DNA from: an uncultured Bacteroidales bacterium
GTDB taxonomy: Bacteria > Bacteroidota > Bacteroidia > Bacteroidales > Bacteroidaceae
Assembly (NCBI GenBank): GCA_902771725.1
Contig: CACXXT010000001.1
Location: 62,001 to 126,000, forward strand
DNA: 64,000 nt
Direction: 5' to 3'
The notes under the pieces are model-generated. The model saw nothing but the letters and a program-made list of their open reading frames with translations. It was not told the origin of the DNA and searched no databases. Below are positions 3,607-11,031 of this stretch, one piece after another; position 1 is the first letter of the stretch; each line of letters begins with the position of its first letter. The position numbers were made by a program, and so were the translations under genes.

Positions 3607-4449
3607 ATGAGCAAAGGTAAGTTAGCGAAGTTCGCCGACATGGCGAGCTACCCCCACGTCTTCGAATGTCCATTCAAAGCTATTGGCGCTCCAGGGTCAG
3701 AAGTATCTACTCCCCTCCCTAACAGGGAGGGGCAGGGGGGAGAGTCCGGAACCCGTTCGGTGGCTGATCTCATTGGCCGCTGGCATCAGGACTTCTTCCA
3801 CAACCAGAATCCCATCGTGCTGGAGCTGGGCTGCGGACGTGGTGAGTACACCGTGGGGCTGGCTCGCCGCTATCCCGACCGCAACTTCATCGGCGTGGAC
3901 ATCAAGGGAGCCCGCATGTGGACAGGAGCCACGGAATCCCTGCGCGAAGGGCTGCAGAACGTAGCCTTCCTGCGCACCAACATCGAGATCATCGACCGCT
4001 TCTTCGCTCCCGGCGAGGTGCAGGAGATATGGCTCACCTTCTCCGACCCGCAGATGAAGAAAGCCACCAAGCGGCTGACTTCCACCTACTTCCTGCAGCG
4101 CTACCGCCACTTCCTGCCCGACGGCGGCATCATCCACCTCAAGACCGACTCCAACTTCCTCTTCACCTACACCCGCTACGTTGCCGAGCGCAACCACCTG
4201 CCCGTGGAGGCTTGCACGGAGGACTTGTACGGCTCCGCGCCCGAACACTCGGAGGAGGAAGGGGCGTTCGACCTCAGCATCCGCACCTACTACGAGCAGC
4301 AATGGCTCTCGCGCGGCATCACCATCAAGTACCTGCGCTTCCGCCTGCCCGCCGAGGGCGACCTCACGGAGCCGGATGTGGAAATCCCCCTGGACGACTA
4401 CCGCAGCTACAACCGCGAGAAGCGCAGCTCCCTCACTACCTCCAAGTGA
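3607..4449 (+). CDS. trmB: tRNA (guanine-N7)-methyltransferase with an in-frame palindrome insert
   Basis: A 280-residue SAM-dependent enzyme that methylates G46 of tRNA in the cytoplasm. The SAM loop is [15 protein letters not shown] (from residue 72). Later landmarks are [28 protein letters not shown] (the TrmB-typical DP motif, with Met for the more common Trp), LKTDSNFLF and [13 protein letters not shown]. The N-terminus reads [11 protein letters not shown], typical of Bacteroidales TrmB, but then about 25 extra residues (26-51, rich in P, G, E, N and R) separate it from [11 protein letters not shown]. These residues are encoded by a C-rich palindrome (3710-3732) and its flanks. The catalytic fold should be intact because the insert lies before the Rossmann domain. 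The AlkD-like gene follows after 62 bases. Confidence 0.94.
3710..3740. repeat. C-rich palindrome inside trmB
   Basis: Arms CCCCTCCCT (3712-3720) and AGGGAGGGG (3724-3732) enclose AAC; a further run of G follows. It is in frame and encodes part of the extra segment [11 protein letters not shown] of TrmB. Confidence 0.85.
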
Positions 4450-5411: not shown

Positions 5412-6695
5412 TTAGCCGAGGAAACTGAGGAGGATACCTGCAGCGACGGCGGAGCCGATGACGCCTGCCACGTTCGGACCCATGGCGTGCATGAGCAGGA
5501 AGTTGCGGGGGTCGGCCTTGGCACCTTCGGTCTGGCTGACGCGAGCTGCCATGGGCACGGCGCTGACGCCTGCAGAGCCGATGAGCGGGTTGATCTTCTC
5601 CTTGAGGAAGAGGTTCATGAACTTGGCCAGCAGCACACCGCCTGCGGTGCCTACGCCGAAGGCGACGATGCCCACACAGAGGATGCTGATGGTGCGGAAG
5701 TTCAGGAATGCCTCAGCCGTGGCGGTGGCGCCGACGGTGGTTCCGAGGAAGATGACGACGATGTTGTTCAGCTCGTTCTGCGCGGCCTTCGAGAGGCGCT
5801 CCACCACGCCGCTCTCCTTCATGAGGTTGCCCAGCATGAGGCATCCGATGAGGGTGGCTGCGGAGGGGAGGATGAGGCTGACGACGATGGCGACGACGAT
5901 GGGGAAGATGATCTTCTCCTTCTTGGACACCGTGCGGAGCTGGGACATACGGATCTTGCGCTCCTTCTCGGTGGTCAGGGCACGCATGATGGGCGGCTGG
6001 ATGACGGGCACGAGGGCCATGTACGAGTAGGCTGCCACGGCGATGGGACCCAGGAGGTGGGGAGCCAGCTTGGAGGTCAGGAAGATGGCGGTGGGACCGT
6101 CGGCTCCGCCGATGATGCCGATGCTACCGGCCTCGGCTGGGGTGAAGCCGAAGAGGTCCATCTGCGTGACGAGGAAGGTGGCGAAGATGCCCAGCTGGGC
6201 GGCAGCGCCCAGGAGCAGGCTCTTGGGGTTGGCGATGAGGGGACCGAAGTCCGTCATGGCACCCACGCCGAGGAAGATGAGGCAGGGGTAGATGCCCGTC
6301 TTCACGCCGATGTAGAGGACGTCCAGCAGGCCTCCCTCGGCCATCACGTGGCGGTAGGAGTGGAAGAAGGGGCTCTCGGGGTTCAGGAACTCGTCGTTCC
6401 ACATGGAGGTGTGGAAGAGGCCGGCGCTGGGGATGTTGCTCAGCAGCATGCCGAAGGCGATGGGCAGCAGCAGCAGAGGCTCGTACTCCTTCTTGATGGC
6501 GAGGTAGAGGAGGAAGCAGGCGATGCCGATCATGACGGCGTTCTTCCATCCTTCGCCGATGAAGAAGCTGGTGAAGCCCATCTCGCCGAAGAACTTGTTC
6601 ATGGCTTCGCCGAAGGAGAAGTCCTGAGCAGCAACGACCATGGGAATCATCAGCATCACTGCCAAAGCGCCTAAATATTTGAGATATTGTTTCAT
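5412..6695 (-). CDS. mmdB: Sodium-pumping decarboxylase beta subunit (methylmalonyl-CoA decarboxylase type)
   Basis: A 427-residue integral membrane protein of the OadB/MmdB/GcdB family. It decarboxylates carboxybiotin on the carrier subunit and couples this to export of sodium ions. About ten hydrophobic segments are visible. Landmarks are [15 protein letters not shown], the [21 protein letters not shown] signature that carries the functional Asp, [14 protein letters not shown] and [11 protein letters not shown] with [15 protein letters not shown] near the end. An N-terminal stretch of about 23 residues resembles an uncleaved or cleaved signal sequence. It is the last gene of a four-gene minus-strand operon (alpha, gamma-like, biotin carrier, beta) and lies 42 bases after the biotin carrier. 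Confidence 0.93.
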
Positions 6696-6737: not shown

Positions 6738-7484
6738 TTAAGCCAGCTCCACCAGTGCCTGTCCGCTCTGTACCTGGTCGCCGACATTGACCTTGACGGC
6801 AGCGACCTTGCCTGCGAACTCGGCGGTGATGTTGTTCTCCATCTTCATGGCTTCCATGACGACGACGGTTTCGCCGGCTGCCACTTCCTGACCTACGCTG
6901 ACACACACCTGCTTGATGGTGCCGGGCAGGGGAGCCTCCACGTTCTTGCTGGCCCCGCTCCCCGCTCCCCCCGTGGGGGGTAGAGCCTCTTTTGCAGCAG
7001 GCTTCTCAACAGGTTGGGGTTTCTCCCCCCCACGGGGGGAGTCAGAGAGGGGCTGTCCCTCAGCCTGGAAGTCCACGAGGACGTCGCCCTGGTTGACGCT
7101 GGCGCCTACGCTGGTGCGCACCTTCAGGATGGTGCCGTCGGCCTCGGCGGTGATGGCGTTCTCCATCTTCATGGCTTCCATGGTGATGACGGTGTCGCCC
7201 TGCTTGACCTTCTGGCCGTCGGAGACGAGCACCTGCTTGATGGTGCCGGGCAGGGGAGCCACGATGCTGCCTGCGGCGGCGGGGGCTGCGGCGGGGGCGG
7301 CATGGCTGGCTGCGGCGGGAGCGGCTGCGTGGTGCACGACGGGTTTGGCTGCGTGGTGAGCCAGAGCGGGCACCTCCACGGCATAGGTGTTGCCATTGAG
7401 TGTTACGGCCAGGACGCCATTGTCCTGCTCGGCTACTTTGGCTTCGTAGTCCTTGCCGTCTATCTTAAACTTGAATTCTTTCAT
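6738..7484 (-). CDS. Biotin carrier subunit with two biotinyl domains
   Basis: A 248-residue acyl-CoA decarboxylase carrier. The usual form has about 140 residues and one biotinyl domain. Order: a 40-residue N-terminal beta domain, an Ala/His/Pro-rich flexible linker (41-72), biotinyl domain 1 (about 73-140, EAMKMEN with Lys106), a second linker (about 141-180), and biotinyl domain 2 (181-248, EAMKMEN with Lys214). Both domains keep the full lysine motif and both begin with (V)APLPGTIKQV, so a duplication is likely. The second linker is encoded by two C-rich palindromes in opposite orientation. The carrier should shuttle carboxyl groups from the carboxyltransferase (alpha) to the membrane beta subunit; two arms per chain could double its load. 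A spacer of 115 bases with AT-rich repeats separates it from the gamma-like gene. Confidence 0.92.
   Translation of the reverse strand: MKEFKFKIDGKDYEAKVAEQDNGVLAVTLNGNTYAVEVPALAHHAAKPVVHHAAAPAAASHAAPAAAPAAAGSIVAPLPGTIKQVLVSDGQKVKQGDTVITMEAMKMENAITAEADGTILKVRTSVGASVNQGDVLVDFQAEGQPLSDSPRGGEKPQPVEKPAAKEALPPTGGAGSGASKNVEAPLPGTIKQVCVSVGQEVAAGETVVVMEAMKMENNITAEFAGKVAAVKVNVGDQVQSGQALVELA
6966..7041. repeat. Inverted pair of C-rich palindromes inside the biotin carrier gene
   Basis: Copy 1 (6966-6983) has CCCCCC-GT-GGGGGG; copy 2 (7023-7041) has a C run, AC and GGGGGG and is close to the reverse complement of copy 1 with its flanks. They are 41 bases apart and encode the linker between the biotinyl domains (DSPRGGEKP and LPPTGGAGSG). 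Confidence 0.85.
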
Positions 7485-7599: not shown

Positions 7600-7953
7600 C
7601 TACAGGTGTTTGTTCAGCTCGGCGTGCCAAGCGGGGTGATCCATGTGGTGGATGGTGAGAATGCCGCTCTCCTCGTCGTGCTGGTTGCCCATGTAGAGGT
7701 AGATGGCGGTGGCGATGGCGAGCTTGTCGGTGTCGGAGGCGGAGGCGATGTCTGCCTGCTTGGACTTGACAAATTCTGCGCCCGTGAGCACCTTAGGCTT
7801 GGCGGCTGCCTCGGCCTTGGCGGTCGAGCCCTTGGCCACTGCGCTGAAGACGTAGAGCACGCACACCAGCAGGATGAGAATCGAGAAGACCACGCCCACG
7901 CTGATGCCTGCCATTCCCCATGCCAGACCCCAATCGGTAGATAATAGTGTCAT
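7600..7953 (-). CDS. OadG-family small membrane subunit of the decarboxylase
   Basis: A 117-residue protein with one N-terminal membrane helix (about 12-38, GMAGISVGVVFSILILLVCV) followed by a short charged and Ala/Lys-rich linker and a soluble tail ending in HHMDHPAWHAELNKHL. This plan fits gamma/delta-type subunits of sodium-pumping decarboxylases, which hold the alpha and beta subunits together. The residues are poorly conserved across the family, so identification rests on the plan and on its place between mmdA (40-bp gap) and the biotin carrier. His residues at the tail might bind zinc, as in oxaloacetate decarboxylase gamma, but that is inference. Confidence 0.78.
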   Translation of the reverse strand: MTLLSTDWGLAWGMAGISVGVVFSILILLVCVLYVFSAVAKGSTAKAEAAAKPKVLTGAEFVKSKQADIASASDTDKLAIATAIYLYMGNQHDEESGILTIHHMDHPAWHAELNKHL

Positions 7954-7993: not shown

Positions 7994-9565
7994 TCAGAGA
8001 GGTATGTTCCCGTGCTTCTTGGCAGGATTCTGCATGCGCTTGTCGGCCAGCTGGTCGAGGGCACGGATGATGCGGAAGCGGGTGTTGCGCGGTTCGATGA
8101 CATCGTCGATGTAGCCGTACTTGGCGGCGTTGTAGGGGTTGGCGAAGAGCTTGGTGTACTCGGCCTCCTTCTCGGCGATGAACTCCTTGGCGGCCTCGGG
8201 TCCTTTCTCTTCCTTGATGGCCTTGGCCTCCTTGGCATAGAGCACAGCAGCAGCGCCGGCTGCACCCATCACGGCGATTTCTGCCGAGGGCCATGCGTAG
8301 TTCATGTCGCCGCGCAGCTGCTTGCAGCTCATGACGATGTGGCTGCCGCCGTAGGACTTACGCAGCGTGACGGTCACCTTGGGCACCGTGCACTCGCCGT
8401 AGGCGTAGAGCAGCTTGGCACCATGCAGGATGACGGCGTTGTACTCCTGGCCTGTGCCGGGCAGGAATCCGGGTACGTCCACGAGGGTGACGATGGGGAT
8501 GTTGAAGGCGTCGCAGAAACGGACGAAGCGGGCACCCTTGCGCGAGGCGTTGCAGTCCAGCACGCCGGCCAGCTGCTTCGGCTGGTTGGCAACGATACCC
8601 ACGCTCTCGCCGTTGAAGCGGGCGAAGCCGACGATGATGTTCTTGGCGAAGTTCGGCTGAACCTCGAAGAACTCCCCGTTGTCCACCACGCTGGCGATGA
8701 CCTCATACATGTCGTAGGGCATGTTGGGGTTGTCGGGGATGATTTCGTTGAGGTAGTCGTCCTTGCGGTCGATGGGGTCGGTGCACTCCACGCGCGGAGT
8801 CTTCTCCAGGTTGTTCTGGGGGATGTAGCTCAGGAGCTGCTTGATCATGGCCATGGCCTCCTCCTCCGTCTTGGCGGTGAAGTGGGTGACGCCGGACTTG
8901 GTGCTGTGGACGCTGGCGCCTCCCAGCTCTTCCTGGGTGACCACCTCGCCCAGCACGGTCTTCACCACGGCGGGACCGGTGAGGAACATGTAGCTCGTGC
9001 CTTCCATCATCAGCGTGAAGTCCGTCAGAGCGGGGCTATACACAGCGCCGCCTGCGCAGGGACCGAAGATGCCGCTGATCTGGGGAATAACACCGCTGGC
9101 CATGATGTTGCGCTGGAAGATCTCAGAGTAGCCGGCCAGGGCGTTGATGCCCTCCTGGATGCGGGCACCGCCGGAGTCGTTCAGACCGATGACGGGAGCA
9201 CCCACCTTCATGGCGGCGTCCATCACCTTGCAGATCTTCAGGGCCATGGTCTCGCTCAGAGAACCGGCGTTGACCGTGAAGTCCTGCGCAAAGACATAAA
9301 CAAGGCGACCTGCAATCGTTCCGTAGCCGGTGACGACGCCGTCGCCCATGTACTGCTTCTTCTCCATGCCGAAGTTGTGGCAGCGGTGCGTTACGAACAT
9401 GTCCATTTCCTCGAAGCTGCCGGCATCCAACAGCATGTCGATGCGCTCGCGGGCGGTGTACTTGCCGCGTTCGTGCTGCTTCTCAATGGCTTTCTCGCCA
9501 CCGCCCAGACGGGCTTTGGCGCGGAGCTCGATGAGCTCCTGAATCTTTTCCGTTTGTTTGCTCAT
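7994..9565 (-). CDS. mmdA: Methylmalonyl-CoA decarboxylase alpha subunit (carboxyltransferase)
   Basis: A 523-residue biotin-dependent carboxyltransferase with two crotonase-like domains, the normal length for the family. It moves the carboxyl group of (S)-methylmalonyl-CoA to biotin, giving propionyl-CoA, the exit of the succinate-propionate route. Landmarks are [16 protein letters not shown] and [16 protein letters not shown] in the N-half, and [18 protein letters not shown] with [12 protein letters not shown] in the C-half; the glycine-rich pairs form the two oxyanion holes. It leads the operon. A promoter motif lies 117 bases upstream and the leader can fold into GC-rich hairpins. Propionyl-CoA carboxylase beta is the alternative name, but the linked OadB-type pump argues for a decarboxylase. 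The epimerase gene often found first in such operons is absent here. Confidence 0.93.
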
Positions 9566-9750: not shown

Positions 9751-9781
9751 TTTGTCCTTCGCCCACTTTGTGCTATATTTG
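9751..9781 (+). promoter_or_regulatory. Promoter of aroB
   Basis: TTTG (9751-9754) and TATATTTG (9774-9781) with a 19-base spacer match both parts of the Bacteroidetes primary sigma consensus. Transcription would begin about 16-20 bases before the ATG at 9806, so the longer frame starting at 9752 cannot be the real start. Confidence 0.8.
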
Positions 9782-9805
9782 CAGCAAAATTGCAACATCC
9801 ACAGC

Positions 9806-10930
9806 ATGGAAAAACAGCCTATCATCATCACCAGCGACCTCCGGCACGACCTCCAGGCGGCCATATGCGCTCTGGCTCCCGACCGCCTCTTCGTCCTCTG
9901 CGATGAGACGACCGCCCGCCTCTGCCTGCCCCGTCTCTCTCCTGCCCTTAATTCCCTCGAAGCCCCCTCTCCTGCCTCGCAGCCCTCTTCCTCCTCTCCT
10001 GCCGTGAGTCCAGTGGACGGCGGTTCGTCCGCCGTCTCCCTCATCACCATCCCCCCCACGGACGAGGCCAAGACCCTGGACTCCCTCGCCTCCGTCTGGA
10101 CTGCCCTCAGCCAGGGCGGAGCCACGCGCCACAGCCTCCTCATCAACCTCGGAGGAGGCATGGTCACCGACCTCGGAGGCTTCGCTGCCTCCACCTTCAA
10201 GCGCGGCATCGCCTTCATCAACATCCCCACCACCCTGCTCGCCATGGTCGATGCCAGCGTGGGAGGAAAGACCGGCATCAATTTCTGCGGACTGAAGAAT
10301 GAGATCGGCGTCTTCCGCAACGCCACCACCGTCATCCTCGACACCCAGTTCCTAACCACCCTCGACCGCGAGAACCTCCTCAGCGGCTACGCCGAGATGC
10401 TCAAGCACGGGCTCATCAGCTCGCCCCAGGAACTCCACTCCCTCCTCCGCTTCGACATCAGCCAGCCCGACCTGGCCCTGCTCCAGCAGATGGTGGCGCG
10501 CAGCGTAGCCGTCAAGGAGAACATCGTACTCCAGGATCCACAAGAACACGGACTGCGCAAGGCGCTGAACCTCGGACACACCGTAGGCCACGCCTTCGAG
10601 AGCCTGGCCATGGCCAAGCACCAGCCCGTGCTACACGGATATGCCGTAGCCTGGGGACTCGTATGCGAGCTCTACCTGAGCACCAAGCGCATGAACTTCC
10701 CCCGCGAGACCTTCTACCAGCTCATGTACTTCGTGCGAGACCACTACGGACGCTTCCCACTCGACTGCCGCGAGTACGACCGCATCTACGAGCTCATGAC
10801 CCACGACAAGAAGAACACCGCCGGCATCGTCAACTTCACCCTCCTCGGAGACGTCGGAGACATACGCATCAACCAGACAGCCACCAAGGACGAAGTCTTC
10901 GACATGCTGGACTTCTACCGGGAAAACTAG
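9806..10930 (+). CDS. aroB: 3-dehydroquinate synthase with a Ser/Pro-rich in-frame insert
   Basis: A 374-residue enzyme that turns DAHP into 3-dehydroquinate, the second step of the shikimate pathway; it needs NAD and a divalent metal. Landmarks are the NAD-binding INLGGGMVTDLGGFAAS (about 113-129), INIPTTLLAMVDASVGGKTGIN (about 138-159), GYAEMLKHGLI and the metal-binding LNLGHTVGHAFE. Between LCLPRL and ITIPPTDEAKTL there are about 31 additional residues (47-77), rich in Ser, Pro and Ala, where normal AroB runs straight on. This insert is encoded by a pyrimidine-rich stretch plus a palindrome (10013-10036). It falls on the surface between early strands, so activity is plausible. The start at 9806 is set by the promoter just upstream. 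Confidence 0.94.
   Translation: MEKQPIIITSDLRHDLQAAICALAPDRLFVLCDETTARLCLPRLSPALNSLEAPSPASQPSSSSPAVSPVDGGSSAVSLITIPPTDEAKTLDSLASVWTALSQGGATRHSLLINLGGGMVTDLGGFAASTFKRGIAFINIPTTLLAMVDASVGGKTGINFCGLKNEIGVFRNATTVILDTQFLTTLDRENLLSGYAEMLKHGLISSPQELHSLLRFDISQPDLALLQQMVARSVAVKENIVLQDPQEHGLRKALNLGHTVGHAFESLAMAKHQPVLHGYAVAWGLVCELYLSTKRMNFPRETFYQLMYFVRDHYGRFPLDCREYDRIYELMTHDKKNTAGIVNFTLLGDVGDIRINQTATKDEVFDMLDFYREN
10013..10036. repeat. 24-base palindromic element inside aroB
   Basis: Eight-bp arms GACGGCGG and CCGCCGTC enclose TTCGT. The whole 24-base element, starting with GTG, recurs as an exact reverse complement at 16754-16777 and in diverged form at 58493-58513. In aroB it is in frame and encodes VDGGSSAV. 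Confidence 0.9.
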
Positions 10931-10934
10931 AGCA

Positions 10935-10985
10935 TCTAGAACTTCTAGAAAATCTAGAAAATCTAGAAAATCTAGAGAATCTAGA
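10935..10985. repeat. 9-bp tandem array TCTAGAAAA between aroB and the GH43 gene
   Basis: TCTAGA recurs at 10935, 10944, 10953, 10962, 10971 and 10980, exactly 9 bases apart. The period keeps the reading frame that leads into the GH43 gene. It fills most of the 101-base spacer. Confidence 0.85.
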
Positions 10986-11031
10986 GCTTTTAGAGCCCCC
11001 CTACAAACCCAGAAACCAAAACTATAGAATA

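Follow-up and report, generated by a model that had tools for sequence, protein, structure and literature searches.

A two-armed biotin carrier of a predicted sodium-pumping decarboxylase in gut Bacteroidaceae and the palindromic repeat element that codes for its linker

The window analysed here is a stretch of 64,000 nucleotides from an uncultured member of the Bacteroidaceae. On its minus strand lie, in the order MmdA-OadG-carrier-OadB, the genes of an MmdA-type carboxyltransferase (7994-9565, 523 aa; Pfam Carboxyl_trans, E 1.8e-201), an OadG/MmdD-like small membrane subunit (7600-7953, 117 aa; Pfam OAD_gamma, E 7.3e-7), a biotin carrier of the MmdC/GcdC type (6738-7484, 248 aa) and an OadB/MmdB-type Na+-pumping beta subunit (5412-6695, 427 aa; Pfam OAD_beta, E 1.2e-164), the first two being located upstream of the carrier gene and the last one downstream of it. 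As a set, these genes are predicted to encode a biotin-dependent Na+-pumping decarboxylase of the methylmalonyl-CoA type. Methylmalonyl-CoA is the likely substrate, a similarity-based assignment that goes no further than likely because two scores fall below their cut-offs: the MmdA-type subunit reaches 800 bits against TIGR01117 (mmdA), whose cut-off is 998.8, and the carrier reaches 116.4 bits against the NCBI model MmDecMmdC, whose cut-off is 200 and which has a length of 132 and was built for single-domain carriers. The low carrier score casts doubt on the substrate-level name of the protein and leaves its role as a carrier unaffected.

The carrier frame (minus strand) starts with ATG and is stop-free throughout its 248 aa. 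Pfam Biotin_lipoyl matches it in two stretches (whole-protein E 2.1e-35), the NCBIfam model MmDecMmdC matches it partially, also in two stretches, and the biotinyl site E(A/S)MKM occurs twice, both times as EAMKMEN, with the lysines at positions 106 and 214. Pfam and a domain HMM delimit a first biotinyl domain, D1 (residues ~73-141, K106; 7062-7268, minus strand), and a second one, D2 (residues ~180-248, K214; 6741-6947, minus strand). The frame, the Pfam matches and the motif positions confirm the preliminary description of this gene, which had reported two complete biotinyl domains with Lys106 and Lys214, and the operon and Pfam matches bear out its reading as a decarboxylase carrier. An AlphaFold2 model built on an alignment of 29 carriers gave pLDDT values above 90 in D1 and D2 and below 50 at residues 44-69 and 144-176; the carrier is thus modelled as a pair of folded arms borne by two disordered hinges. 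When a profile of two-domain carriers was compared with solved structures, the best match was the E2 subunit of Escherichia coli pyruvate dehydrogenase (7b9k), which spanned both domains, and solved biotin carriers matched with one domain only. The model and the match to 7b9k both place the protein among tandem swinging-arm proteins, in which at least two folded carrier domains are joined by a flexible linker.

How common is the two-domain form? A carrier match was found in 80 of the 101 genomes surveyed in the genus. The carrier frames had two-domain length in 66 cases and one-domain length in 14, and one of the short ones (G069) proved to be a two-domain gene split across two contig ends (L172, L173), which brings the two-domain carriers of the genus to about 67 of 80. 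They are also found in other genera of the family (g2, g17, g20 and g25), and named records with two domains come from Bacteroidaceae, Prevotellaceae, Muribaculaceae and Paludibacteraceae, mostly from rumen, gut and faecal assemblies. In the remainder of the order the carrier is almost always a single-domain protein of ~140-150 residues. The gene had at first been described as an exception to a rule of one domain, a double arm being regarded as unusual, and the same description had named in advance the observation that would speak against this, namely a frequent occurrence of double-domain carriers in the clade. The counts in the genus and in the other family genera give exactly that result, and rarity of the two-arm form is rejected. 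An assembly error behind the double domain is excluded as well, given that dozens of independent assemblies show two domains. The two-arm carrier is therefore real but typical of its clade.

The age of the duplication was addressed with trees of the single domains. In a quick tree of 218 domains, the D1 domains of the main clade formed one clade (74 D1 rows plus L135, a D1 severed by a contig end; SH-aLRT 96), and the single-domain carriers of the same genus nested among the D2 rows. This arrangement argues for one duplication, followed by the loss of one arm in some species. In a more careful analysis with 104 rows, D1 as one clade was not rejected (p-AU 0.49) and was recovered in 65% of bootstrap trees, and D2 was not a single clade; a third tree of 55 rows again gave D1 as one clade, with a support of only 18/0 (18% of bootstrap trees). 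As the domain alignment has only 73 columns, the deep forks of these trees are weak. Forcing D1 and D2 of the window protein to be sisters cost 110 log-likelihood units and was rejected (p-AU 0.0002), and a forced clade of both domains from five near species cost 45 units and was likewise rejected (p 0.0085). The window protein's D1 is 55% identical to its D2, and this D2 is 90% identical to the D2 of L061. On these sequence comparisons, a recent duplication within the lineage of the window genome can be firmly excluded, and we propose, with modest confidence, that a single old tandem duplication in the family was followed by losses of one arm. Two-domain carriers of g20, Paludibacteraceae and two other families (L129, L132, L191-L197) group apart in the 218-domain tree and may represent separate events.

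Both arms look functional. The M-K-M triplet is present in both domains of all 84 distinct two-domain carriers; in EAMKM forms it is followed in D1 by EN in 34 and by AN in 31, and in D2 by EN in 65 of the 84. Judging from these motifs, K106 and K214 would both be biotinylated. A second arm may raise the rate of the reaction. Since one-arm species survive, two arms are not essential. From the N-terminus, the carrier would consist of an anchor, an Ala/Pro hinge, D1, a second disordered linker and D2. At MmdA, each arm would be loaded with CO2 from methylmalonyl-CoA and would then pass this CO2 on to the membrane subunit MmdB, much as lipoyl domains work between the active sites of pyruvate dehydrogenase, and two arms per chain would provide a higher local concentration of carrier.

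It could also be that the arms are specialised, one of them serving the decarboxylase and the other being used for docking or shared with a second enzyme such as acetyl-CoA carboxylase. The domains do differ in ways that would fit such a division of labour: D2 is more conserved than D1 in most relatives of the genus, and the residues that follow M-K-M vary more in D1 than in D2. Nevertheless, every species carries the full biotin-site motif in both domains. In favour of sharing, a search of the whole genome (97.5% complete) with Pfam Biotin_lipoyl (E <= 0.001) gave no match outside the two domains of the carrier, and the same holds for G016 and G065; no separate BCCP was seen in these genomes (92-100% complete), an absence that is read from metagenome bins. 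However, single-domain species also show just one biotinyl domain genome-wide, so that sharing would occur without any need for two. We regard specialisation as unlikely.

Tandem biotinyl domains were also found in the Spirochaetales, in alpha subunits resembling that of oxaloacetate decarboxylase. Two such domains are present in L136, L140, L142 and L145 and three in L146 (4001-5017) and L149 (3535-4557), all of them carrying EAMKM. Going by their sequences, tandem biotinyl domains seem to have several origins, one in Bacteroidaceae, one in Spirochaetes, where up to three arms are found, and perhaps one more in a further group of Bacteroidales. Domains 1 and 2 of L146 are 99% identical, which suggests a recent duplication or gene conversion.

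The linker between D1 and D2 (residues ~144-178) is encoded by a REPIN-like element at ~6951-7053, with no strand assigned, which was delimited by genome matches, exact cores and comparison of copies. Its first palindrome arm, CCCCCCGTGGGGGG, lies at 6967-6980 and its second, CCCCCCACGGGGGG, at 7026-7039 (both given on the plus strand), the second being inverted relative to the first, that is, in reverse-complement form. The origin of the linker in two palindromes of opposite orientation had been recognised from the start; what the genome adds is that both are the arms of a longer element of ~103 bp. With two mismatches allowed, the palindrome 14-mer has 4 matches in the window as compared with ~1 in shuffles of the window. 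More decisive is the core CTCCCCCCGTGGGG, which occurs in 17 exact copies in the 3.7-Mb genome (reversed control, 0), and the linker DNA used as a query retrieved 28 genome matches at E <= 0.001, some of them near full length (79% to L007). Copies of ~103-117 bp share the layout GCCCCTCTCC-N-CTCCCCCCGTGGGGGGGAG, a variable spacer and CCCTCCCCCCCACGGGGGGAG-N-GGAGAGGGGC. An inverted pair of short palindromes with many copies across the genome is the hallmark of a REPIN, and the element shows it. In the carrier, the span of the element coincides with the disordered segment of the AlphaFold2 model, and the centre of the spacer (KPQPVEKPAAK) is closer to the native linker than the spacers of other copies are. 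Most copies are open in three to five of the six frames, which makes the element suited to in-frame insertion into coding sequence. The exact core was found in 20 of the 101 members of the genus, with 63 occurrences in G015; in G096 the sampled copies mostly look intergenic.

A search for the RAYT transposase domain (Y1_Tnp) in these incomplete genomes gave one weak partial match of 25 bits in the window's own genome and none in the element-rich G015, G016, G045 and G096. With a single weak match in its own genome and no correspondence to copy number across these genomes, RAYT was not retained as a probable mover of the element.

When did the palindromes enter the linker? Among the two-domain carriers examined, this element is present in the linker of the window genome (L001) and of one near-identical pair (L051/L092) only. 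At the same linker position, a palindrome pair of another sequence, GCCCCCGTGGGGGC and GCCCCCTCGGGGGC, is present in two lineages with different flanks, L065/L090 and L086. The linkers of all other two-domain carriers examined are plain and Ala/Pro-rich. The sequences indicate that the palindromes entered an existing linker after the duplication, and did so more than once, in three or four lineages; they would have joined it much later, independently and in frame. Two ways of relating palindromes and duplication had been put forward in the preliminary description. The second, that palindromes came later into a linker that tolerated them, is borne out by their distribution and by the old age of the duplication. 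According to the first, the palindromes promoted recombination that led to the duplication, and they mark where it broke; their position exactly between D1 and D2 is what one would then expect. Timing and distribution contradict it: the duplication is found in dozens of species of several genera and the palindromes in three or four lineages with two sequences, a recent origin of the window protein's own D1 and D2 is rejected (p-AU 0.0002), and the same element is located inside many genes without any domain duplication. We therefore give this explanation almost no credence and retain late entry into an old linker.

Although the L051 protein shares 97% identity with the window protein, the sequence that flanks the element in its linker (EGLAVPQT ... 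HTVDAP) is of the type found in a different group of species. This suggests that linker segments have recombined between lineages.

The carrier is one of many genes with the element inside. In this genome, copies within reading frames are found in Lpd (two), GcvPB, HemW, MetG, a PFL-like glycyl-radical enzyme and its activase, an NtrC-type regulator (between the receiver and AAA domains), a GltD-like protein, a sodium:solute symporter and a helicase; one copy is near the C-terminus of IspG, and others are at the N-termini of CysS and of a lipoprotein. The encoded peptide, PLSNSPRGGEDSxSSE...LPPTGGAGRGA, would form a hydrophilic loop rich in Pro, Ser and Gly. In relatives, the empty site is a short loop both in Lpd (for example YIPVEGVDSP in G016) and, at the insertion point, in HemW. 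A codon-usage test was applied to 64 sampled copies from four genomes, 21 of which had clear coding sequence on both sides; frame and strand were kept in all 21, with none of these out of frame. Overlapping loci caused one Lpd copy to be counted twice among the 21. In-frame insertion into conserved genes whose relatives have empty sites is the behaviour of RPE-like elements. All the genomes are metagenome-assembled and repeats are a classic source of misassembly, so that the copies within genes could in principle be assembly artefacts or marks of pseudogenes. This seems very improbable to us: the frame is kept in 21 of 21 copies across four separately assembled genomes, the insertion in the glycyl-radical enzyme falls at the identical residue in G000 and G015, the HemW insertion is common to G000 and G042, and the protein domains that flank the insert are intact. 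Genuine in-frame insertion is thus the reading we follow, and on balance we lean towards the view that gut Bacteroidaceae harbour a family of paired palindromic repeats adapted to protein genes, a Bacteroidota counterpart of RPEs whose in-frame insertions fall in the loops and linkers that core enzymes offer.

Other repeats were noticed beside these copies. Three element copies lie within ~1.9 kb in the neighbouring GcvPB and Lpd genes (L009/L010, G000 C21:73244 and 73605; L030, C21:71843), and Lpd has, in addition to its two copies, a third, smaller palindrome-like insert, KDSLPSQGGLEGS. In two relatives (G093 and G076) the HemW loop has in-frame inserts derived from simple repeats of other kinds; this loop therefore gathers several kinds of repeat. 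Elsewhere in the window, TrmB (tRNA guanosine-46 N7-methyltransferase; 3607-4449, plus strand) has, as read from this sequence alone, an in-frame insert of 15 residues at ~3712-3741, coded by another palindrome, CCCCTCCCTAACAGGGAGGGG, which is nearly identical to one in L011. The 3-dehydroquinate synthase gene (9752-10930, plus strand) has a Ser/Pro-rich in-frame stretch, SPALNSLEAPSPASQPSSSSPAVSPVDGG, at ~9955-9996, near a 20-base imperfect tandem repeat, and a tandem GAAAATCTA repeat lies at 10922-10994, right at the end of this aroB gene.

Taken together, we consider it probable that the window encodes the two-arm carrier of a Na+ pump, which goes back to an old duplication with losses and later received an in-frame REPIN-like insertion in its linker. 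The linker leads to a more unusual finding than the two-arm carrier itself, a family of palindromic elements that code for protein. Pyruvate dehydrogenase, with its lipoyl domains, has so far supplied most of the arguments about the role of extra swinging arms; a genus in which one-arm and two-arm carriers both occur naturally makes this role testable in a second chemistry. For palindromes placed in frame within genes, behaviour is best known from Rickettsia. Many natural insertions, together with relatives that have empty sites, can reveal which sites of a protein accept a new peptide. If the proposed behaviour is true, conserved proteins gain species-specific loops in this way, and the linker of the two-arm carrier is one product of the process.

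How does this system compare with known ones? Our literature search, which was thin on subscription journals, returned no paper that describes sodium-pump decarboxylases with tandem biotinyl domains and no report of such in-frame palindromes for Bacteroidota. Like MmdC and GcdC carriers, the window protein has an N-terminal anchor, an Ala/Pro-rich hinge and a C-terminal biotinyl domain, and its gene accompanies those of a carboxyltransferase and a membrane beta subunit. In Clostridium symbiosum, the glutaconyl-CoA decarboxylase combines a pair of distinct carriers, GcdC1 and GcdC2, in a proposed composition of 4 GcdA : 2 GcdB : GcdC1 : GcdC2 : 2 GcdD (PMC7145394). Whereas GcdC1 and GcdC2 have a single arm each, the window carrier is one chain with a single anchor and two consecutive biotinyl domains; by analogy, such a chain could replace the pair. 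With pyruvate dehydrogenase E2 it has in common tandem swinging-arm domains of the same fold on flexible linkers; unlike E2, whose lipoyl domains are attached to a catalytic core, it is a biotinyl and stand-alone protein. The linker element resembles REPINs, the paired inverted REPs moved by RAYT, in its two inverted short palindromes, variable spacer and dispersal, but it is often inside genes and a link to RAYT was not found. Palindromic repeats that lie in frame have been described in Rickettsia (RPE), in Wolbachia and, as intragenic REPs, in a number of bacteria, with the highest numbers in O. terrae and R. conorii (PMC2229807, PMC3733652). An NCBIfam scan of element-bearing proteins, an indirect test of kinship with RPEs, gave no RPE family among its matches. 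By their description, RPEs and intragenic REPs differ from the window element, which consists of an inverted pair of palindromes with C/G runs and in which no GTAG/CGTC tag was noticed. Like the RPE, it is a dispersed palindromic repeat of the ~100-150-bp class that lies in frame inside conserved protein genes (PMC2229807; PMC3733652), but its hosts are gut Bacteroidaceae rather than obligate intracellular bacteria.
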